In this document: piece after piece, positions 58,193-64,000 of the stretch
Numbering within the stretch: position 1 is the first letter of the stretch
How the letters are laid out: each line of letters opens with the position of its first letter
Notes under the pieces: generated by a model
Databases searched by the model: none
What the model was told of the DNA's origin: nothing
The model's input: only the letters and a program-made list of their open reading frames with translations
Assembly: GCF_013155125.1 (NCBI RefSeq)
Contig: NZ_CP053564.1
Span: 1,991,501-2,055,500, forward strand
Direction: 5' to 3'
Length of the DNA: 64,000 bases
Origin: Pseudonocardia broussonetiae
GTDB lineage: Bacteria > Actinomycetota > Actinomycetes > Mycobacteriales > Pseudonocardiaceae
Translations under genes and position numbers: made by a program

Positions 58193-58253
58193 GCCCTGTG
58201 GACGTCCGGCGGGGCCGGAACTCATCGCGCGAACTGCCGCGCCGAGGATCCAC

Positions 58254-58278
58254 TATCGGTGAGATCGTCTCCTATGAT
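58254..58278 (+). promoter_or_regulatory. Putative leaderless promoter of the nitrilase-like/lar operon
   Basis: TATCGG (58254-58259), the short palindrome GAGATCGTCTC (58261-58271) and a good -10 hexamer TATGAT (58273-58278) lie directly before ATG 58285, so transcription probably starts at or near the ATG. A related arrangement with TATCGGAT and a -10 placed seven bases before a GTG occurs at 62648-62687. Confidence 0.55.
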
Positions 58279-58284
58279 GGATCG

Positions 58285-59088
58285 ATGCCCCGGCTGGCCG
58301 CGGCCGCGGCGGCCTTCGGGCCCGATCTCGAGTTCGACCTCCGCCGCGTCGGCACGCTCATCGAGCACGCCCGCCGGGACGGCGCCGACCTGCTCGTGCT
58401 GCCCGCCGGCGCGCTCGGCGGGCACGTCCCCGGCGCCGGCGACCCGTCGATCGTGCTCGACCTCGACGACCCGGTCCTGGAGCGGGTGGCGCGCCTGGCC
58501 GGGCCCCTGGTGGTCTGCGTCGGGTTCCGGCAGCGCACCGGCGGGGGCTGCCACAACGCCGCCGTGTGCCTGCACGGCGACGGGGTGCTCGGCACGCACC
58601 ACAAGGTGCACCTGCCGCCCGGCGAGGCGGCCGTCTACGCGCCGGGCTGCTCCTTCGACGCGTTCGACACGCCCGTCGGCCGGATCGGCATGCTGATCGA
58701 CTACGACAAGACGTTCCCGGAGTCGGCGCGCTCGCTCGCCCTCGACGGCGCGCAGGTCCTGGCCTGCCTGTCGGCCTGGCCGACCAGCACCACCCACCGC
58801 GCCCCCCGCATGAACGACGACCGCCAGTCGCGCCTGTTCGACCTCTACGACCGCGCCCGCGCCGCGGAGAACCAGGTCGTCCTCGTCTCCTCCAACCAGA
58901 CCGGCAGCCACGGCGGCACGCGCTTCCTCGGCCAGGCGAAGGTGGTCGGCCCGGACGGCGACGTCCTGGCCCGCACCTGGGGCAAGGCCGGGATCGCGAC
59001 GGCCGACGTCGACGTGCCCGACCGCGTCCGCGAGGTGCGCCGGGTGCTGCACCACCTCGTCGAACGACGGCCGGAGACCTACCGGTGA
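58285..59088 (+). CDS. Nitrilase-superfamily protein lacking catalytic Glu and Cys
   Basis: A 267-residue carbon-nitrogen hydrolase-fold protein. The fold markers are there: LLVLPAGAL, HHKVHLPPGE and IGMLIDYDKTFPESARSL. But the catalytic Glu position is Ala41 (LPAG), the catalytic Cys position is Asp139 (IDYD instead of ICYD), and only Lys107 of the E-K-C triad remains. It is therefore unlikely to be a normal amidase. It is the first gene of a run with larE, larB and larC, so a structural or cofactor-related role is possible but unproven. Confidence 0.75.
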   Translation: MPRLAAAAAAFGPDLEFDLRRVGTLIEHARRDGADLLVLPAGALGGHVPGAGDPSIVLDLDDPVLERVARLAGPLVVCVGFRQRTGGGCHNAAVCLHGDGVLGTHHKVHLPPGEAAVYAPGCSFDAFDTPVGRIGMLIDYDKTFPESARSLALDGAQVLACLSAWPTSTTHRAPRMNDDRQSRLFDLYDRARAAENQVVLVSSNQTGSHGGTRFLGQAKVVGPDGDVLARTWGKAGIATADVDVPDRVREVRRVLHHLVERRPETYR

Positions 59089-59138
59089 CCCGACCTATGC
59101 TCGGGTCGTCCGGCCCCGCCCCGCGTGAAGGGAACCCG

Positions 59139-59984
59139 ATGCCGCGCACCGCCCCGCCCGCCGACGTCGACCGCCGGGCCGACGACCTGCGCGCCCGGCT
59201 CGCCGAGGAGTCCGGCGTCGTCGTCGCCTACTCCGGCGGGGCCGACTCGGCGCTGCTCGCCGCCCTCGCGCACGAGGTGCTGGGCGCGCGCGCCCTGGCC
59301 GTCACGGCGGTGTCGCCGAGCCTGCCCGAGTCGGAGCGGCGCCGGGCCGCGGCGTTCGCGGCCGACCGCGGGTTCGCCCACGTCGAGGTGCGCACGCACG
59401 AGTTCTCCGACCCCCGCTACGTCGCCAACGCGGGCGACCGCTGCTACCACTGCAAGAGCGCCCTGTTCGACGCCGTGGCGCCGCTCGCGGCCTTCGCGGG
59501 CTCGGTCGTGGCGCTCGGCACGAACCTCGACGACCTCGGCGACCACCGGCCGGGCCAGCGCGCGGCCGCCGAGCGCGGCGCGATCGCGCCGATGGTCGAC
59601 GTCGGGCTGACGAAGGCGGAGGTGCGGGCGATCAGCCGCCGGCTCGGGCTCGACACCGCCGACAAGCCCGCCGCGGCCTGCCTGTCGTCGCGGGTCGCGT
59701 ACGGCGACCCCGTCACCGCCGACGTGCTCGCGCGCGTCGAGCGGGCGGAGGACGCGCTGGCCGCGCTCGGGTTCGCGCAGTGCCGCGTCCGCGCCCACGC
59801 CGCCGGGACCGTCGGCCGGGTCGAGGTGCCGGCCGCGGAGCTCGGGCGGGCGCTGGACCTGCGGTCGGAGGTCGTCGCCGCGGTCCGGGGTGCCGGGTTC
59901 GCGTTCTGCGCGCTCGATCTCGACGGGTTCCGCAGCGGGGGCATGAACGTCCTGCTCGGGGTGCCGACCGTCGGCGCGCGATGA
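59139..59984 (+). CDS. larE: LarE, sulfur transferase for nickel-pincer nucleotide synthesis
   Basis: A 281-residue PP-loop enzyme: YSGGADSALL (residues 31-40) binds ATP, followed by GTNLDDLGDHRPGQRAAAE and KPAAACLSSRVAYGD. LarE adenylates and thiolates the pyridinium dicarboxylate intermediate to make the pincer thiocarboxylates. Visible cysteines are C102 and C105 (RCYHCK) and C181 (AACLSSR); C181 corresponds to the sacrificial Cys176 of Lactiplantibacillus. GAAGGGA precedes ATG 59139. ATGA coupling to larB. Confidence 0.92.
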   Translation: MPRTAPPADVDRRADDLRARLAEESGVVVAYSGGADSALLAALAHEVLGARALAVTAVSPSLPESERRRAAAFAADRGFAHVEVRTHEFSDPRYVANAGDRCYHCKSALFDAVAPLAAFAGSVVALGTNLDDLGDHRPGQRAAAERGAIAPMVDVGLTKAEVRAISRRLGLDTADKPAAACLSSRVAYGDPVTADVLARVERAEDALAALGFAQCRVRAHAAGTVGRVEVPAAELGRALDLRSEVVAAVRGAGFAFCALDLDGFRSGGMNVLLGVPTVGAR

Positions 59985-60679
59985 CGGGCGGGCCCTCCGA
60001 CCCCGGCTTCACGGACCTGGGCTTCGCCCGCCCCGACACCGACCGCGAGGCCCGCTCCGGCCTGCCCGAGGTCGTCTACGGGCCGGGCAAGGCGCCCGGG
60101 CAGGTCGCCGCCGTGGTCACGACGCTGCTCGCGGCCAACTCCGGCCCCGTCCTCGTGACGCGCGTCGGGCCCGACACCGCGCGCGAGGTGCTGGCCGCCG
60201 TGCCCGGCGGGCACCACGACCCCGACGCCCGGCTGCTGGTCTGGCGGCCCGCCGCGCCGCTCGGGTTCCGGCTCGCCGTCGTCTCCGCCGGCACCTCCGA
60301 CGGGCCGGTGGCCGCCGAGGCCGCGGCGGTCGCGACGGCCGTCGGGCTGACGGTCGACGCCGTCGCCGACGTCGGGGTCGCCGGGCTGCACCGGCTCCTG
60401 GCCGTGCGCGAGCGCATCGAGTCCGCGCACGCCGTCGTCTGCATCGCCGGGATGGAGGGGGCGCTGCCCAGCGTCGTCGCCGGGCTGGTGAGCCGCCCGG
60501 TCGTCGCCGTGCCGACCTCGGTCGGCTACGGCGCCGCGCTGGAGGGCGTGACGGCGCTGCTGGCCATGCTCACGTCGTGCGCGGCCGGCGTGACGGTCGT
60601 GAACATCGACTCCGGCTTCGGCGCCGCGATGGCCGCCCACCGGCTCGCCGCGGCCGTCTCCCGGGGGACCGACCGGTGA
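59981..60679 (+). CDS. larB: LarB, NaAD carboxylase for nickel-pincer nucleotide synthesis
   Basis: A 232-residue protein with the PurE-like/NCAIR mutase core (LAVVSAGTSDGPVAAEAAAV; DVGVAGLHRL; IAGMEGALPSVVAGL). The Cys at position 200 (MLTSCAAGVTVVNID) corresponds to the conserved cysteine that covalently assists catalysis in characterised LarB. It carboxylates and hydrolyses nicotinic acid adenine dinucleotide, the first step of the pincer cofactor route. GTGA coupling to larC. Confidence 0.92.
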   Translation: MTGGPSDPGFTDLGFARPDTDREARSGLPEVVYGPGKAPGQVAAVVTTLLAANSGPVLVTRVGPDTAREVLAAVPGGHHDPDARLLVWRPAAPLGFRLAVVSAGTSDGPVAAEAAAVATAVGLTVDAVADVGVAGLHRLLAVRERIESAHAVVCIAGMEGALPSVVAGLVSRPVVAVPTSVGYGAALEGVTALLAMLTSCAAGVTVVNIDSGFGAAMAAHRLAAAVSRGTDR

Positions 60680-61827
60680 TCGTCTGGCTCAACCCCGTCG
60701 GCGGCGTCTCGGGCGACATGCTGCTCGGCGCGCTGATCGGCCTGGGCGCTCCCGTCGACGGCGTGCGCGAGGCGGTCGCCTCCACCGGGCTGACGGGCTG
60801 GGACCTCGAGGTCACCGAGGTCCGGCGCGGGGCGCTGCGGGCCACCCGCGCGACCGTCCGGGTCGAGGCGCAGCCGCCCGAGCGGCGGGCGGCCGACCTG
60901 CTCGACATCGTCGCGCGGGCCCGGCCCGCGGGGGTCGCCGAGACGGCGGGGCGGGCCCTCACCGCGATCGCGGAGGTCGAGTCGCGGCTGCACGGCGTGC
61001 CGGTCGACCAGGTGCACCTGCACGAGATCGGGGGCGTCGACACCGTCGTCGACGCGGTCGGGGTGGCGGCCGCGCTCGCCCTGCTCGACGTCGACGCCGT
61101 GCACTGCGGCCCGCTCCCGATGGGCACCGGGACGGTGCGGACGGCGCACGGCGTCATCCCGCTGCCCGCCCCGGCCACCGCGGCGCTCGTGGCCGCCGCG
61201 GGCGCGCCCGTCACCGCGGGCGGCGACCGCGAGACCGTGACGCCGACCGGGATGGCGCTGCTCCTGGCCCTGGGCACGCGGTTCGGGCCGGTGCCGGACA
61301 TGACCGTGTCGGCTGTCGGCTACGGCGCCGGGGGCCGCGACGACCCCGGCCGCGCCAACGTCGTGCAGGCGCTGCTCGGCACGGCCCCCGACCCCGGGGC
61401 GGCCGGGGAGGTCATGCCGATGACGCTCCTGGAGACCACCGTCGACGACGTGCCGGGCGAGGTGCTCGGCCACGTGCTCGACCGCGCCCTCGCCGCCGGC
61501 GCCGCCGACGCGTGGATCACGCCCGTGACGATGAAGAAGTCGCGGCCCGGTCACACCGTCCACCTGCTCGTCGCGCCGGAGCGGGCCGCGGCGTGCGAGA
61601 CGCTGCTGCTGCGCGAGACCGGCAGCCTCGGGGTCCGCCGGCGCACCGTCGACCGGCGCGCGCTGCCCCGGCGGACGAGCACCGTCGACGTCGGCGGGCA
61701 CGCCGTGCGCGTCAAGCACGGCCCGTGGGGGGCCAAGCCCGAGCACGACGACCTCGTCGCGGCGGCCGCCGCGCTGGACCTCCCGCTGCGCGAGGTCGCC
61801 GCGCGGGCGGCGCGCGCCCTCACGTGA
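60676..61827 (+). CDS. larC: LarC, nickel insertase for nickel-pincer nucleotide
   Basis: A 383-residue LarC with the DUF111 start WLNPVGGVSGDMLLGALIGL, VHLHEIGGVDTVVDAVG, and the C-terminal TTVDDVPGEVLGHVLDRAL with TPVTMKKSRPGHTVHLLV. LarC inserts Ni in a CTP-dependent reaction to complete the cofactor. It is a single uninterrupted frame here; in Lactiplantibacillus the product needs a programmed frameshift. The 3' end overlaps the convergent OsmC gene by eight bases. Confidence 0.92.
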   Translation: MIVWLNPVGGVSGDMLLGALIGLGAPVDGVREAVASTGLTGWDLEVTEVRRGALRATRATVRVEAQPPERRAADLLDIVARARPAGVAETAGRALTAIAEVESRLHGVPVDQVHLHEIGGVDTVVDAVGVAAALALLDVDAVHCGPLPMGTGTVRTAHGVIPLPAPATAALVAAAGAPVTAGGDRETVTPTGMALLLALGTRFGPVPDMTVSAVGYGAGGRDDPGRANVVQALLGTAPDPGAAGEVMPMTLLETTVDDVPGEVLGHVLDRALAAGAADAWITPVTMKKSRPGHTVHLLVAPERAAACETLLLRETGSLGVRRRTVDRRALPRRTSTVDVGGHAVRVKHGPWGAKPEHDDLVAAAAALDLPLREVAARAARALT

Positions 61828-62218
61828 CGCTGAACGTGATCTCGGGCGGCTCGGCCAGGGTGCGCGTGACGTAGCAGACCCGCTTCGCGGCCTCGACGAG
61901 CTTCTCCAGGTCGGGGCCCGCGGGGGAGTCGGCGTGCACCTCGATCCGGAACGCGCGGAAGCGCGGCCCGTCGTAGGTGCCGGTGACGTCGACGGCCAGG
62001 CCCTCGAGCTCGACCTTCCGCTTCGCGGCGGTCCAGGCCACCGCGATCGTGAAGCAGGAGGCGATCGAGGCCAGCAGCAGCTCGGTCGGCTGGGGCCCGG
62101 AACCGGCGCCCCCGACCGACTCCGGCTCGTCGGAGACGACCTCGAAGCCGCCCGCGTCGACCTCGGCCCGCAGCCCGCCCGCCCAGCGCGCCGAGACGCT
62201 CCGCTCGGTCGCGCTCAC
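61820..62218 (-). CDS. OsmC-family peroxiredoxin-like protein
   Basis: A 132-residue OsmC/Ohr-type protein with redox-active Cys55 (SIASCFTIAV) and Cys115 (KRVCYVTRTL) and a central GPQPTELLLASIA. It likely reduces peroxides with thiols. The start is GTG 62218. It is convergent with larC and overlaps it by eight bases, so its link with the nickel genes may only be positional. Confidence 0.85.
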   Translation of the reverse strand: MSATERSVSARWAGGLRAEVDAGGFEVVSDEPESVGGAGSGPQPTELLLASIASCFTIAVAWTAAKRKVELEGLAVDVTGTYDGPRFRAFRIEVHADSPAGPDLEKLVEAAKRVCYVTRTLAEPPEITFSVT

Positions 62219-62295
62219 GCCCGCGCCCCCCGTGCAACACCGGTGCAACCGGGGCGGTCCAGAGTGCTGCGCATCACACGAGCCGGGAGTCGCTG

Positions 62296-62640
62296 ATGAC
62301 CGCAGTAGCCCACGCCCCGCTCCGGCTGGTCACCTGCCGGGACGCCTGTCCGGCCGGACCGCGCCGGGCCCACCACGACCGCCTGCTGACCGTCGACACC
62401 GACACCGACGCGCTGCTGGAGCTCATGGAGCTCGCCGTGACCTGGCACGAGCTCGATCATCCCCGCGAGCGCCTGGTACCGCCCGTGGAGTGGTCGACGT
62501 TCGCCGAGCGGCACCACTGGGTCTGCCCGGAGCGGGCCGGGCAGGCGTTCCTGCTGGCGGTGGACGTCGTCGACCGCGGCGCTCCGCGACGGCGCGCACC
62601 GCGGGGCCGGACGACGATGCTGGACCTGGTCACGGGCTGA
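62296..62640 (+). CDS. Hypothetical protein
   Basis: A 114-residue protein with Cys/His near the start (LVTCRDACPAGPRRAHH) and near the end (HHWVCPERAGQ), and an acidic middle (VDTDTDALLELMELAVTWHE). The Cys-x3-Cys and His residues could bind a metal, but no known motif is recognised. ATG 62296. It lies between the OsmC gene and the ComA-like gene. Confidence 0.55.
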   Translation: MTAVAHAPLRLVTCRDACPAGPRRAHHDRLLTVDTDTDALLELMELAVTWHELDHPRERLVPPVEWSTFAERHHWVCPERAGQAFLLAVDVVDRGAPRRRAPRGRTTMLDLVTG

Positions 62641-62647
62641 CGTCACG

Positions 62648-62687
62648 TATCGGATAGTAGAAGTCCGTTCCTTATCGGATCTAGGGT
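62648..62687 (+). promoter_or_regulatory. Putative leaderless promoter with TATCGGAT repeats before the ComA-like gene
   Basis: TATCGGATA (62648-62656) and TATCGGAT (62673-62680) are direct repeats 25 bases apart, followed by TAGGGT (62682-62687) as -10, ending six bases before GTG 62694. This spacing suggests a leaderless transcript, and TATCGG recurs before the nitrilase-like gene at 58254. A common regulator for both units is inferred. Confidence 0.5.
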
Positions 62688-62693
62688 GGGTTC

Positions 62694-63479
62694 GTGTCCG
62701 ACACCGACTTCCTCGACCTCCCGACGCGGTCGGCCCGTCCGCGCGGCACCGGTCTCACGCACGTGCTCGACGGGGGCGCCGGCCCGTCCGCGGTGGACGA
62801 CGTGCTCGCCGGGGCGGGCGCGCTGATCGACATCTGGAAGATCGGCTGGGGCACCGCGTACGTCGACGCGGCCCTTCCCCGCAAGGTCGCGGCGCTGACC
62901 GCCGCCGGGGTCGACCTGTGCCTGGGCGGCACGCTGCTCGAGATCGCCTGGGCGCAGGGACGCGCCGCGGAGTGCCTGGCCTGGGCGCGCGACCGCGGCT
63001 TCGCCCGCGTCGAGGTCTCCCGCGGCACCGTGTCCATGTCGCTGCCGGAGAAGGCCGCGCTGATCGCGCGGGCGGCGCGCGACTTCTCGGTGCTCGCCGA
63101 GGTCGGGTCGAAGGCCCCGGGCGAGCTGCACGCCGCGCGGACGTGGCCGGCCGAGTGCCGCTCCGACCTCGACGCCGGCGCGACGCTCGTCGTCACCGAG
63201 GGCCGGCAGAGCGGCACCGTCGGCACGTTCGACGACCAGGGGCGCGTGCGCCCGGACGTCGTCGAGGCCGTGGCGTCCGCGGTGGGCGTCGAGCGGGTGG
63301 TGTTCGAGGCGCCGCGGGCGAGCCAGCAGGCGTGGTTCATCCGCCGGTTCGGGGCCGAGGTGAACCTCGGCAACATCACCCCGGGCGACGTCCTGTCGGT
63401 CGAGACGCTGCGGCTCGGGCTCCGGTCCGACACCGCGTCGCCGGCGGTGCGGGGCGCGGCGGGCGCGGAACCCGCGTGA
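62694..63479 (+). CDS. Phosphosulfolactate synthase-family protein (ComA-like)
   Basis: A 261-residue TIM-barrel protein matching the ComA family along its length: RPRGTGLTHVLDGG, LIDIWKIGWGTAYVD, GTLLEIAWAQG, RVEVSRGTVSMSL, LAEVGSKAPGEL, VVTEGRQSGTVGTF, RVVFEAPRASQQAWFIRRFG and VNLGNITPGDVLSVETLRLG. ComA condenses phosphoenolpyruvate and sulfite to (R)-phosphosulfolactate in coenzyme M synthesis; actinobacterial homologues lie outside methanogens and their role is less clear. The substrate here is not proven. The next gene overlaps its stop (GTGA). Confidence 0.85.
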   Translation: MSDTDFLDLPTRSARPRGTGLTHVLDGGAGPSAVDDVLAGAGALIDIWKIGWGTAYVDAALPRKVAALTAAGVDLCLGGTLLEIAWAQGRAAECLAWARDRGFARVEVSRGTVSMSLPEKAALIARAARDFSVLAEVGSKAPGELHAARTWPAECRSDLDAGATLVVTEGRQSGTVGTFDDQGRVRPDVVEAVASAVGVERVVFEAPRASQQAWFIRRFGAEVNLGNITPGDVLSVETLRLGLRSDTASPAVRGAAGAEPA

Positions 63480-64000
63480 CGGCGGCCGCGCCGGCGGGCC
63501 CCAACTTCGTCCCGCTGCGCTACCGCGGGGTCGCCGTGTCGACGGTCCCGCGCGAGGTCGCGCTGGACGCGGAGTCCCTGCGCGCGCACTTCCTGGGCCG
63601 CGACGCCTACCGCCGTACGCGGTTCGTCGTCGCCCGCCACGACCCGGCCGTGCCCGGCCCGACCGCCGTGCTGCAGGTCGAGCGGGCGTCGCCGGAGCCG
63701 CTGTTCGCGCCGGTCGTGGACGTGCGGCTGCTCGCCGGGCCCGACGAGTGCGCCTACGTCGTCGATCCCGACGTCGACACCGGCATCCCCACCGCGCTGG
63801 CCGCCGCGGCCCGCGAGCACGCGCCCGGCGCGCGCGTCGTGGTGGTGGAGGGGCGCTACGCCCACGTCAACTTCATCCTGGAGCCCGCCGCGCTGCGGGT
63901 CGTGGTGCGCGACGTCGTGCCGCCGGAGCCGGGCAAGCTCGCCGACCAGGCCGCGCGCGTCGTCGCGGTGCTGGAGGACCTGGCGCCCGTGGAGCTCGTC
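63476..64000 (+). CDS. Unrecognised conserved-looking protein, partial at window edge
   Basis: At least 175 residues, cut by the right edge. The GTG at 63476 overlaps the ComA-like stop, so the two are co-translated. The sequence looks like an alpha/beta protein: FVPLRYRGVAVSTV, RTRFVVARHDPAVPGPTAVL, LFAPVVDVRLLAGPDECAYV, VVVVEGRYAHVNFILEPAAL, then VVPPEPGKLADQAARVV. No family is identified with confidence; it does not resemble LarA. Its tight coupling makes it a likely partner in the ComA-like reaction or the next step. Confidence 0.6.
   Translation, partial: MTAAAPAGPNFVPLRYRGVAVSTVPREVALDAESLRAHFLGRDAYRRTRFVVARHDPAVPGPTAVLQVERASPEPLFAPVVDVRLLAGPDECAYVVDPDVDTGIPTALAAAAREHAPGARVVVVEGRYAHVNFILEPAALRVVVRDVVPPEPGKLADQAARVVAVLEDLAPVELV

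Follow-up and report, generated by a model that had tools for sequence, protein, structure and literature searches.

The window analysed here, a 64,000-nucleotide stretch of the Pseudonocardia broussonetiae genome (G000:C1:1991501-2055500; genome G000, 7.29 Mb in 4 contigs), ends with a larE-larB-larC gene set and the first genes of an operon for coenzyme M (CoM) biosynthesis. The larE (59139..59984), larB (59981..60679), and larC (60676..61827) genes all lie on the + strand, with overlapping starts and stops. Their products align along known enzymes of the nickel-pincer nucleotide (NPN), and all exceed the NCBIfam (equivalog) cut-offs: LarE with 301 bits (TIGR00268, cut-off 150), LarB with 255 bits (NF033503, cut-off 175), and LarC, whose LarC1 and LarC2 domains share a single frame, with 168 bits (TIGR00299, cut-off 90) and 125 bits (NF052512, cut-off 50). 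LarB also aligns to the LarB structure 7mj0, and LarC is the sole LarC match in G000. LarE displays the motifs SGGADS at 32 (SGGxDS), CYHC at 102, and ACLSSR at 180, its cysteines 102, 105, and 181 forming the CxxC-C pattern. In those parts of PMC9283937 that deal with it, this motif denotes the [4Fe-4S]-type LarE, and by its motifs the LarE of the window is a sulfur insertase of that type. A previous reading of the window from its letters and translations (the sequence-only reading) had placed these three genes after a nitrilase-fold gene and before an OsmC gene, a hypothetical gene, and a ComA-like gene; all of these are present.

The ComA-like gene is xcbB (62694..63479, + strand), a phosphosulfolactate synthase of the ComA family (PF02679, 259 bits). 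Its product is 50% identical to that of Nocardioides JS614 and 37% to that of Xanthobacter Py2, and its top match is the archaeal ComA model, at 224 bits for a cut-off of 280. The coupled gene, at first described as unrecognised, belongs to DUF7714 and is recognisable as xcbA (63476-64402, + strand; NF052538, 327 bits, cut-off 150); it crosses the window end at 64000. Beyond this end, 24.5 kb of sequence and one further stretch were taken in, and coordinates past 64000 are window coordinates continued. The operon proceeds there with xcbD (64387-65724; XcbD model 552 bits, cut-off 600), xcbE (65721-66683; XcbE model 207 bits, cut-off 450), and xcbC (66680-68191; XcbC model 426 bits, cut-off 575). 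These three remain under their (high) NCBIfam cut-offs, yet the Xcb model is the top match for each, and XcbA stands above its own. The five genes occur together in the B-A-D-E-C order of JS614, with protein identities of 44-50% to JS614 and 37-44% to Xanthobacter Py2. Judged by these matches and this order, the ComA-like gene and its partner are xcbB-xcbA, the head of a complete bacterial CoM operon. Because ComA performs the first step of this complete operon, what it makes most likely goes into CoM. The sequence-only reading had suggested a LarA-like racemase acting on ComA-made sulfolactate. A ComA-family gene indeed adjoins larEBC, but it is part of a complete xcbBADEC operon and no LarA-like gene was found in G000, which makes that version extremely improbable; past 64000 the xcb operon continues and no standard lactate racemase follows. 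Among the control genomes, that of Methanosarcina acetivorans has a DUF7714 (XcbA) match.

LarA is the only enzyme type known to use NPN. The lack of larA, which had been noted from the window, holds for the searches made of G000: PF09861 and PF21113 (LarA_C) both give 0 matches, a divergent LarA-like protein used as a query gives 0 matches at E <= 1, and an 11-sequence LarA profile gives a single match, at E = 0.4. The last two queries were also used because the Pfam model misses LarA members: the LarA-like protein of the lar operon of genomes G165 and G151 scores 20.9 bits, under the Pfam cut-off of 23.3. This protein (c42; L121:6155-7459, L122, L136) is found beside larEBC in G165 and G151, and also in G156; in two genomes it shares an operon with larEBC and genes resembling, by eye, those of sugar-acid catabolism. 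From its sequence, it is possibly a new LarA subfamily. Its existence lends some weight to the idea that the larEBC genes of the window serve a LarA-superfamily enzyme too divergent for the searches, their place beside xcb being incidental. The divergent type, the LarA_C model, and the 11-sequence profile nevertheless all fail in G000, and we regard this idea as unlikely. Four control genomes (Corynebacterium glutamicum, Synechococcus elongatus, Haloferax volcanii, and Methanocaldococcus jannaschii) display a LarC match and no PF09861 match.

The stretch from the lar genes to the ComA-like gene makes up the leftmost part of a ~28-kb island that spans 58.2 to 86.1 kb in window coordinates; 22 kb of it lies outside the window. 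In a family sample of 150 genomes, XcbA is found in 11 and LarC in 27, and the CoM loci of the 11 are of two kinds. Seven are of the island type (G000, G122, G135, G037, G002, G121, G148), with AllG, MSMEG_0572, and a flavoprotein; nitrile hydratase is seen in six of them, and not in the G148 stretches examined. The other four are of the epoxide type: three (G036, G080, G102) possess an EaCoMT 83-84% identical to that of JS614, and the fourth (G071) has a 33% EaCoMT-like gene and a neighbouring set of dehydrogenase and flavoprotein genes. No orthologue of EaCoMT, the known CoM user, was found in G000, where the JS614 EaCoMT aligns only in pieces, at 31-46% identity, in two genes; for comparison, XecA and the JS614 EaCoMT are 50% identical.

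LarC accompanies 6 of the 7 island-type CoM genomes, 1 of the 4 epoxide-type genomes, and 20 of the 139 without XcbA. Setting 6/7 against the 21/143 others, which include two weak partial matches (G104 and G022), gives a Fisher p of 1.3e-4; for LarC without a PF09861 match, G104 and G022 being left out, the counts are 4/7 vs 1/143 (p = 8.5e-6), and both values are uncorrected for phylogeny. The epoxide-type genome with LarC (G102) has its larC near a contig end, and in other genomes of its genus larA lies ~4 kb from larC. As three of the four epoxide-type xcb genomes have no LarC, xcb does not need lar. This speaks against a repurposing of LarE, LarB, and LarC, by which they would make another metallated or thiolated pyridinium or transfer sulfur for the CoM pathway instead of supplying NPN to a racemase-like enzyme. 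Such a shift would fit the want of a LarA in G000, the CxxC-C LarE, which retains its own cysteines so that sulfur must come from elsewhere, and the LarC halves located at two separate loci in four relatives. All three proteins, however, exceed equivalog cut-offs and align along known NPN enzymes, and repurposing appears very unlikely.

A scan for XcbA relatives, whose reach is limited to close relatives, yields 25 loci. In 15 of these, the region upstream of xcb contains larE, larB, and the whole or a part of larC. They are absent there from six other Pseudonocardia-type loci (one with larC only) and from L022, L023, and L024; L025 begins inside xcbA, its upstream side falling outside the sequence. 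Three of the loci (L022, L023, and L025) come from metagenome-assembled genomes (MAGs) labelled Bifidobacterium breve, two of which have an sll0787-like gene adjacent; their xcb contigs are probably misbinned. The linkage is also seen in G135 and in G122, where the lar genes are followed by xcbB and xcbC, with xcbA, D, and E on a different contig, and it persists at ~65-70% protein identity. The neighbourhood test set beforehand thus bears out the coupling of larEBC to ComA, which is not a local accident; that the lar-xcb linkage is recurrent, beyond chance, is well supported. The larC gene is split in P. dioxanivorans, P. sulfidoxydans, and two relatives (L013, L014, L026, L027; L101-L108): its LarC1 and LarC2 parts are found far from each other, and only LarC2 remains beside xcb; the P. 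dioxanivorans halves are >1 Mb apart.

Of 26 XcbA genomes, 23 have LarC, against 27 of the 150 in the family sample. A LarA-like gene above the cut-off is present in 8 of the 26; three have the divergent type, and one of the three is among the 8. A tally restricted to the island type also comprises 26 genomes, the three B. breve MAGs being left out and G122, G135, and G148 added; among them, neither the flavoprotein nor MSMEG_0572 was seen in the stretches examined of L005 and L006, nor MSMEG_0572 in that of L013. LarC is present in 25 of these 26, and no LarA-like gene was found in 15 of the 25. At least larC lies beside xcb in 14 of the 15 LarC genomes without a LarA-like gene, vs 5 of the 10 with one.

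An operator-like site provides a second tie between the lar genes and the island. The motif, TTTCCGATAGTAGAcG, is close to the palindrome TCTACTATAGTAGA and was trained by expectation-maximisation (EM) on 22 loci, only their promoters of xcbB and the flavoprotein gene being used; six xcbB training regions have no visible site. Scores are counted here from 10 bits upwards. In the window, one site is in the xcbB promoter (62648..62663, + strand; 25.1 bits, part of the training set) and another lies upstream of nit-larEBC (58247..58262, - strand), with 12.4 bits by the position weight matrix (PWM) trained only on xcbB and flavoprotein (FADox) promoters; the latter fits the genome-scan pattern as well, that pattern having been written with the site in view. 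A site of at least 10 bits precedes larE (nit in the window) in 8 of 18 linked loci and in 0 of 5 unlinked lar loci, where the best score, 5.4 bits (P. thermophila L123), was not taken for a site. Among 720 Markov resamples of the regions upstream of larE, scores have a 99th percentile of 10.0 bits and peak at 17.9. Outside the island, 10 bits is reached by 2 of 238 upstream regions, one being the same lar promoter taken from the other side. The G000 operator also precedes AllG/radical SAM, the carbamate kinase, and the sll0787-like gene, none of which was in training. A consensus pattern scan of the 7.29 Mb of G000 finds six sites, all in the island; the pattern was written from these six, so that their recovery is circular and only the absence of further sites is informative. 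The reversed pattern has no match in G000 and 0-4 matches in each of six other genomes scanned; lar promoters match the pattern itself in G152, G156, and G164. Shared regulation of the lar, xcb, and nitrile-breakdown genes is fairly supported by these predicted sites, and the island is probably one regulon. The G000 lar promoter has the island operator; the L121 and L122 lar operons, which include a LarA-like gene, do not, a further point against a hidden LarA.

The LarC tree, built on 39 rows after removal of three duplicate genomes, places most linked LarCs in a single clade together with G154, G151, and G165 (support 95/88; 16 of the 39 rows, 13 of them linked), and many loci are therefore not independent. 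This clade would suit simple hitchhiking, whereby lar arrived next to xcb in a Pseudonocardia ancestor and was kept by descent, with an NPN use unrelated to CoM; the separation of lar and xcb in G151, G154, G165, and others also suits it. Against it, G135 has an unrelated lar cassette in this slot, and its LarC groups with LarCs of a genus in which LarA is common (100/99; LarA is present in the genomes of 4 of those 5 rows). The larE, larB, and larC products of G135 are 50, 48, and 42% identical to those of the window, and XcbD and XcbB 70 and 59%. A further larC, beside osmC in G167, is located elsewhere on a long branch, in a placement that the tree program calls unsure. Since the G135 LarC, and apparently that of G167, fall outside the main linked clade, the tree indicates that at least two LarC lineages, and apparently three, stand beside the same island genes. 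The adjacency maintained at ~65-70% protein identity and the operator of the eight linked loci likewise argue against hitchhiking, which we consider quite unlikely.

The remaining features of the window separate or precede these genes. The gene upstream of larE (58285..59088, + strand) encodes a nitrilase-fold (CN_hydrolase) protein (PF00795, 108 bits). In an alignment with a Nit6803 nitrilase, Asp and Ala occupy what we take to be the catalytic Cys and Glu positions of the fold; the protein is likely a dead enzyme. It is 73% identical to a paralogue, the CN-hydrolase of the canonical MSMEG_056x cluster of the same genome, a copy that likewise is without the catalytic Cys. The gene sits between the operator and larE, and was not found upstream of larE in the P. 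oceani relative (L003); Pseudonocardia oceani is the nearest named relative found (XcbA 96% identical). Between lar and xcb, an OsmC-family gene (61820..62218, or to 62248, - strand; PF02566, 77 bits, cut-off 27.5) is kept in relatives, and OsmC is also annotated beside xcb in Methylocystis iwaonis. It is followed by h114 (62296..62640, + strand), a small conserved protein without Pfam or NCBIfam match, in which C14, C18, and H27 are invariant in a 19-sequence alignment. Its predicted structure is helical (mean predicted local distance difference test score, pLDDT, 79), with no PDB match at E <= 0.001.

Past the xcb operon, the island continues with an XRE-cupin regulator (68229-68840, - strand), the flavoprotein, which resembles CoA-disulfide reductases and has a single Cys (FADox, 68936-70291), a small protein (70297-70557), an MSMEG_0572 family member (70601-71086; 237 bits, cut-off 110), x209 (71154-71783), and an MSMEG_0567-type GNAT (71780-72283; 109 bits, cut-off 68). 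A large gene, regulator-like by eye, occupies 72.3-75.5 kb on the - strand. Next come a carbamate kinase (75614-76594; 275 bits above a cut-off of 266, and 352 just under another, 358), FdrA (76591-78126; 412 bits, just under the cut-off of 433), and an MSMEG_0565 glycosyltransferase ending at 79286 (357 bits, cut-off 260). The genes of a nitrile hydratase accessory protein, alpha subunit, and beta subunit follow on the - strand (79294-80953); the alpha subunit carries CTLCSC, presumably the cobalt-type motif, and the closest structures of this predicted Co-type enzyme are cobalt enzymes. The island then harbors AllG (81007-82413, - strand; PF06545, 223 bits, cut-off 27), an MSMEG_0568 radical-SAM gene (82543-83667; 383 bits, cut-off 304), and an sll0787-like (AIRS-like) protein (85087-86082, - strand), which matches its family best, at 239 bits under a cut-off of 321. 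As the canonical MSMEG_056x cluster of G000 is located at C1:4.82 Mb, the set in the island represents a divergent second copy. No catalytic Nit6803-type nitrilase was recognised among the island genes called, the remainder of the genome not having been searched for one. AllH was not recognised by eye among the G000 island genes, G000 not having been searched for it. Two other islands, those of G157 and G135, do have AllH, at 68 and 69 bits (PF11392, cut-off 25; L194:8366-9052 and L160:8555-9382), which completes an AllFGH-like set there. AllH forms the third subunit of the oxamate carbamoyltransferase already described, and its presence agrees with a step in which a carbamoyl group is transferred. 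Another, partial island occurs in P. dioxanivorans (L191:1529-15857; 6.64-6.65 Mb) as its second, with separate copies of xcbB, the flavoprotein gene, and MSMEG_0572; nitrile hydratase is seen there only as a 43-residue alpha match.

Position, co-occurrence, repeated recruitment, and the shared operator suggest together that the CoM island is likely to need NPN. We lean slightly towards the view that larEBC supply NPN to an enzyme other than LarA, in a CoM-dependent nitrile/carbamoyl pathway not yet described. Of the sequence-only reading, the lar-ComA association and the alternative of a new cofactor user stand, the latter being what the evidence favours; sulfolactate racemisation does not, as the partner pathway looks like CoM and nitrile/carbamoyl chemistry. 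The XRE-cupin protein would bind the shared palindrome, and NPN would be loaded into a non-LarA protein of the island pathway or regulon. The gene set suggests, on chemical grounds, disulfide cyanolysis, nitrile hydration, carbamoyl phosphorolysis, and carbamate kinase action. CoM may then be a thiol carrier for a cyano group, which is the least certain part of the scheme. For instance, CoM disulfide and cyanide would yield CoM-SCN, which nitrile hydratase would convert into an S-carbamoyl thioester; FdrA/AllG would phosphorolyse the latter to carbamoyl phosphate, from which carbamate kinase would produce ATP, NH3, and CO2. The flavoprotein would handle the CoM disulfide, and for the NPN-requiring step the natural guess would be hydride or C-C chemistry with a small acid as substrate. 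The scheme in full would give CoM a third role after methanogenesis and epoxide carboxylation, in a CoM-thiol-linked nitrile/cyanide nitrogen pathway ending in carbamoyl phosphate, with one enzyme as the first non-LarA NPN user; it is put forward as a tentative idea that we would sooner doubt than affirm.

Two candidate NPN users were rejected. The Sll0783/MSMEG_0572 cluster was considered as a general user, and MSMEG_0572 occurs in 36 of the 150 family genomes, only 13 of which are among the 27 with LarC. The x209 protein seemed absent wherever lar was, until a six-frame search found it in the lar-less G148 and also in G121 and in Methylocystis; the model of its P. oceani orthologue has a mean pLDDT of 91 and no PDB match at E <= 0.001.

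Several observations weigh against tying NPN to the CoM island. No gene of the island was found whose occurrence follows that of lar, and G148 is an island-type genome without LarC. The three XcbA genomes without LarC are the B. breve MAGs, which do have xcbA. A LarA-like gene occurs in 10 of the 25 LarC-bearing island-type genomes, which also favors a divergent LarA as the enzyme served. The island-type locus on a plasmid of the alphaproteobacterium Methylocystis iwaonis has no lar genes annotated in the 28.9 kb viewed. Regarding the operator, 10 of the 18 linked lar loci score under 10 bits, including all three of a second island architecture (L016, L128, L129), some pattern matches fall outside recognised island genes in three other genomes (G154:C28, G157:C6 and C31, G164:C1), and the circularity of the G000 scan counts here as well. 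Finally, the tree program gave a warning that long branches, that of G167 among them, join.

The xcb loci of Xanthobacter Py2 and Nocardioides JS614 share all five genes with the island, in the JS614 order. However, no EaCoMT-KPCC-dehydrogenase module is seen in the G000 island, which possesses nitrile hydratase, AllG/FdrA/carbamate kinase, and sll078x-like genes instead. A 2024 paper (PMC11507031) reports CoM biosynthesis genes only in methanogens and aerobic alkene-utilising bacteria; island-type xcb loci in Actinomycetota and Methylocystis, with no EaCoMT nearby, suggest another CoM function. The Methylocystis iwaonis plasmid island (NZ_AP027143) resembles that of G000 by its xcbBADEC genes with OsmC, AIRS, radical SAM, GNAT, glycosyltransferase, MSMEG_0572, and DUF1116, and differs by its Nit6803 nitrilase and by the lack of annotated nitrile hydratase or lar in the stretch viewed. 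A LarC search of plasmids names no Methylocystis among the matches listed (30 of 96 records), 7 records being without organism name. With the Nit1C, MSMEG_0565-0572, and sll0783-0787 clusters, the likeness lies in MSMEG_0572, the MSMEG_0567 GNAT, the sll0787 AIRS-like protein, the MSMEG_0565 glycosyltransferase, and the MSMEG_0568 radical SAM protein; the divergent G000 set is tied to xcb and comes with a nitrile hydratase, with no catalytic nitrilase recognised. As regards an oxamate carbamoyltransferase (AllFGH) with carbamate kinase, AllG of the island exceeds its cut-off, FdrA (AllF) falls just under its own, and the carbamate kinase lies above one cut-off and just under another.

The lactate racemase operon larABCDE has larE, larB, and larC in common with G000, in which no LarA was found. 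In this, the window is closer to the orphan larBCE sets, which consist of larB, larC, and larE without larA; as stated in the sections of PMC11796402 devoted to them, they are found in ~15% of the genomes analysed, many of them cyanobacteria such as Synechocystis PCC 6803, and their NPN user has not been identified. Orphan larBCE sets are therefore already known; the CoM connection was not encountered in the open-licence PMC literature searched (most subscription journals lie outside it), where no paper was found that brings together NPN and CoM, or nitrile enzymes and CoM synthesis. Unlike the orphan sets already described, the one reported here is linked to a particular pathway island and apparently shares its regulation. 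Its position, its co-occurrence, and the common operator tie it to a short gene list in culturable Pseudonocardia, and the NPN user could therefore be sought by genetics and pull-down.

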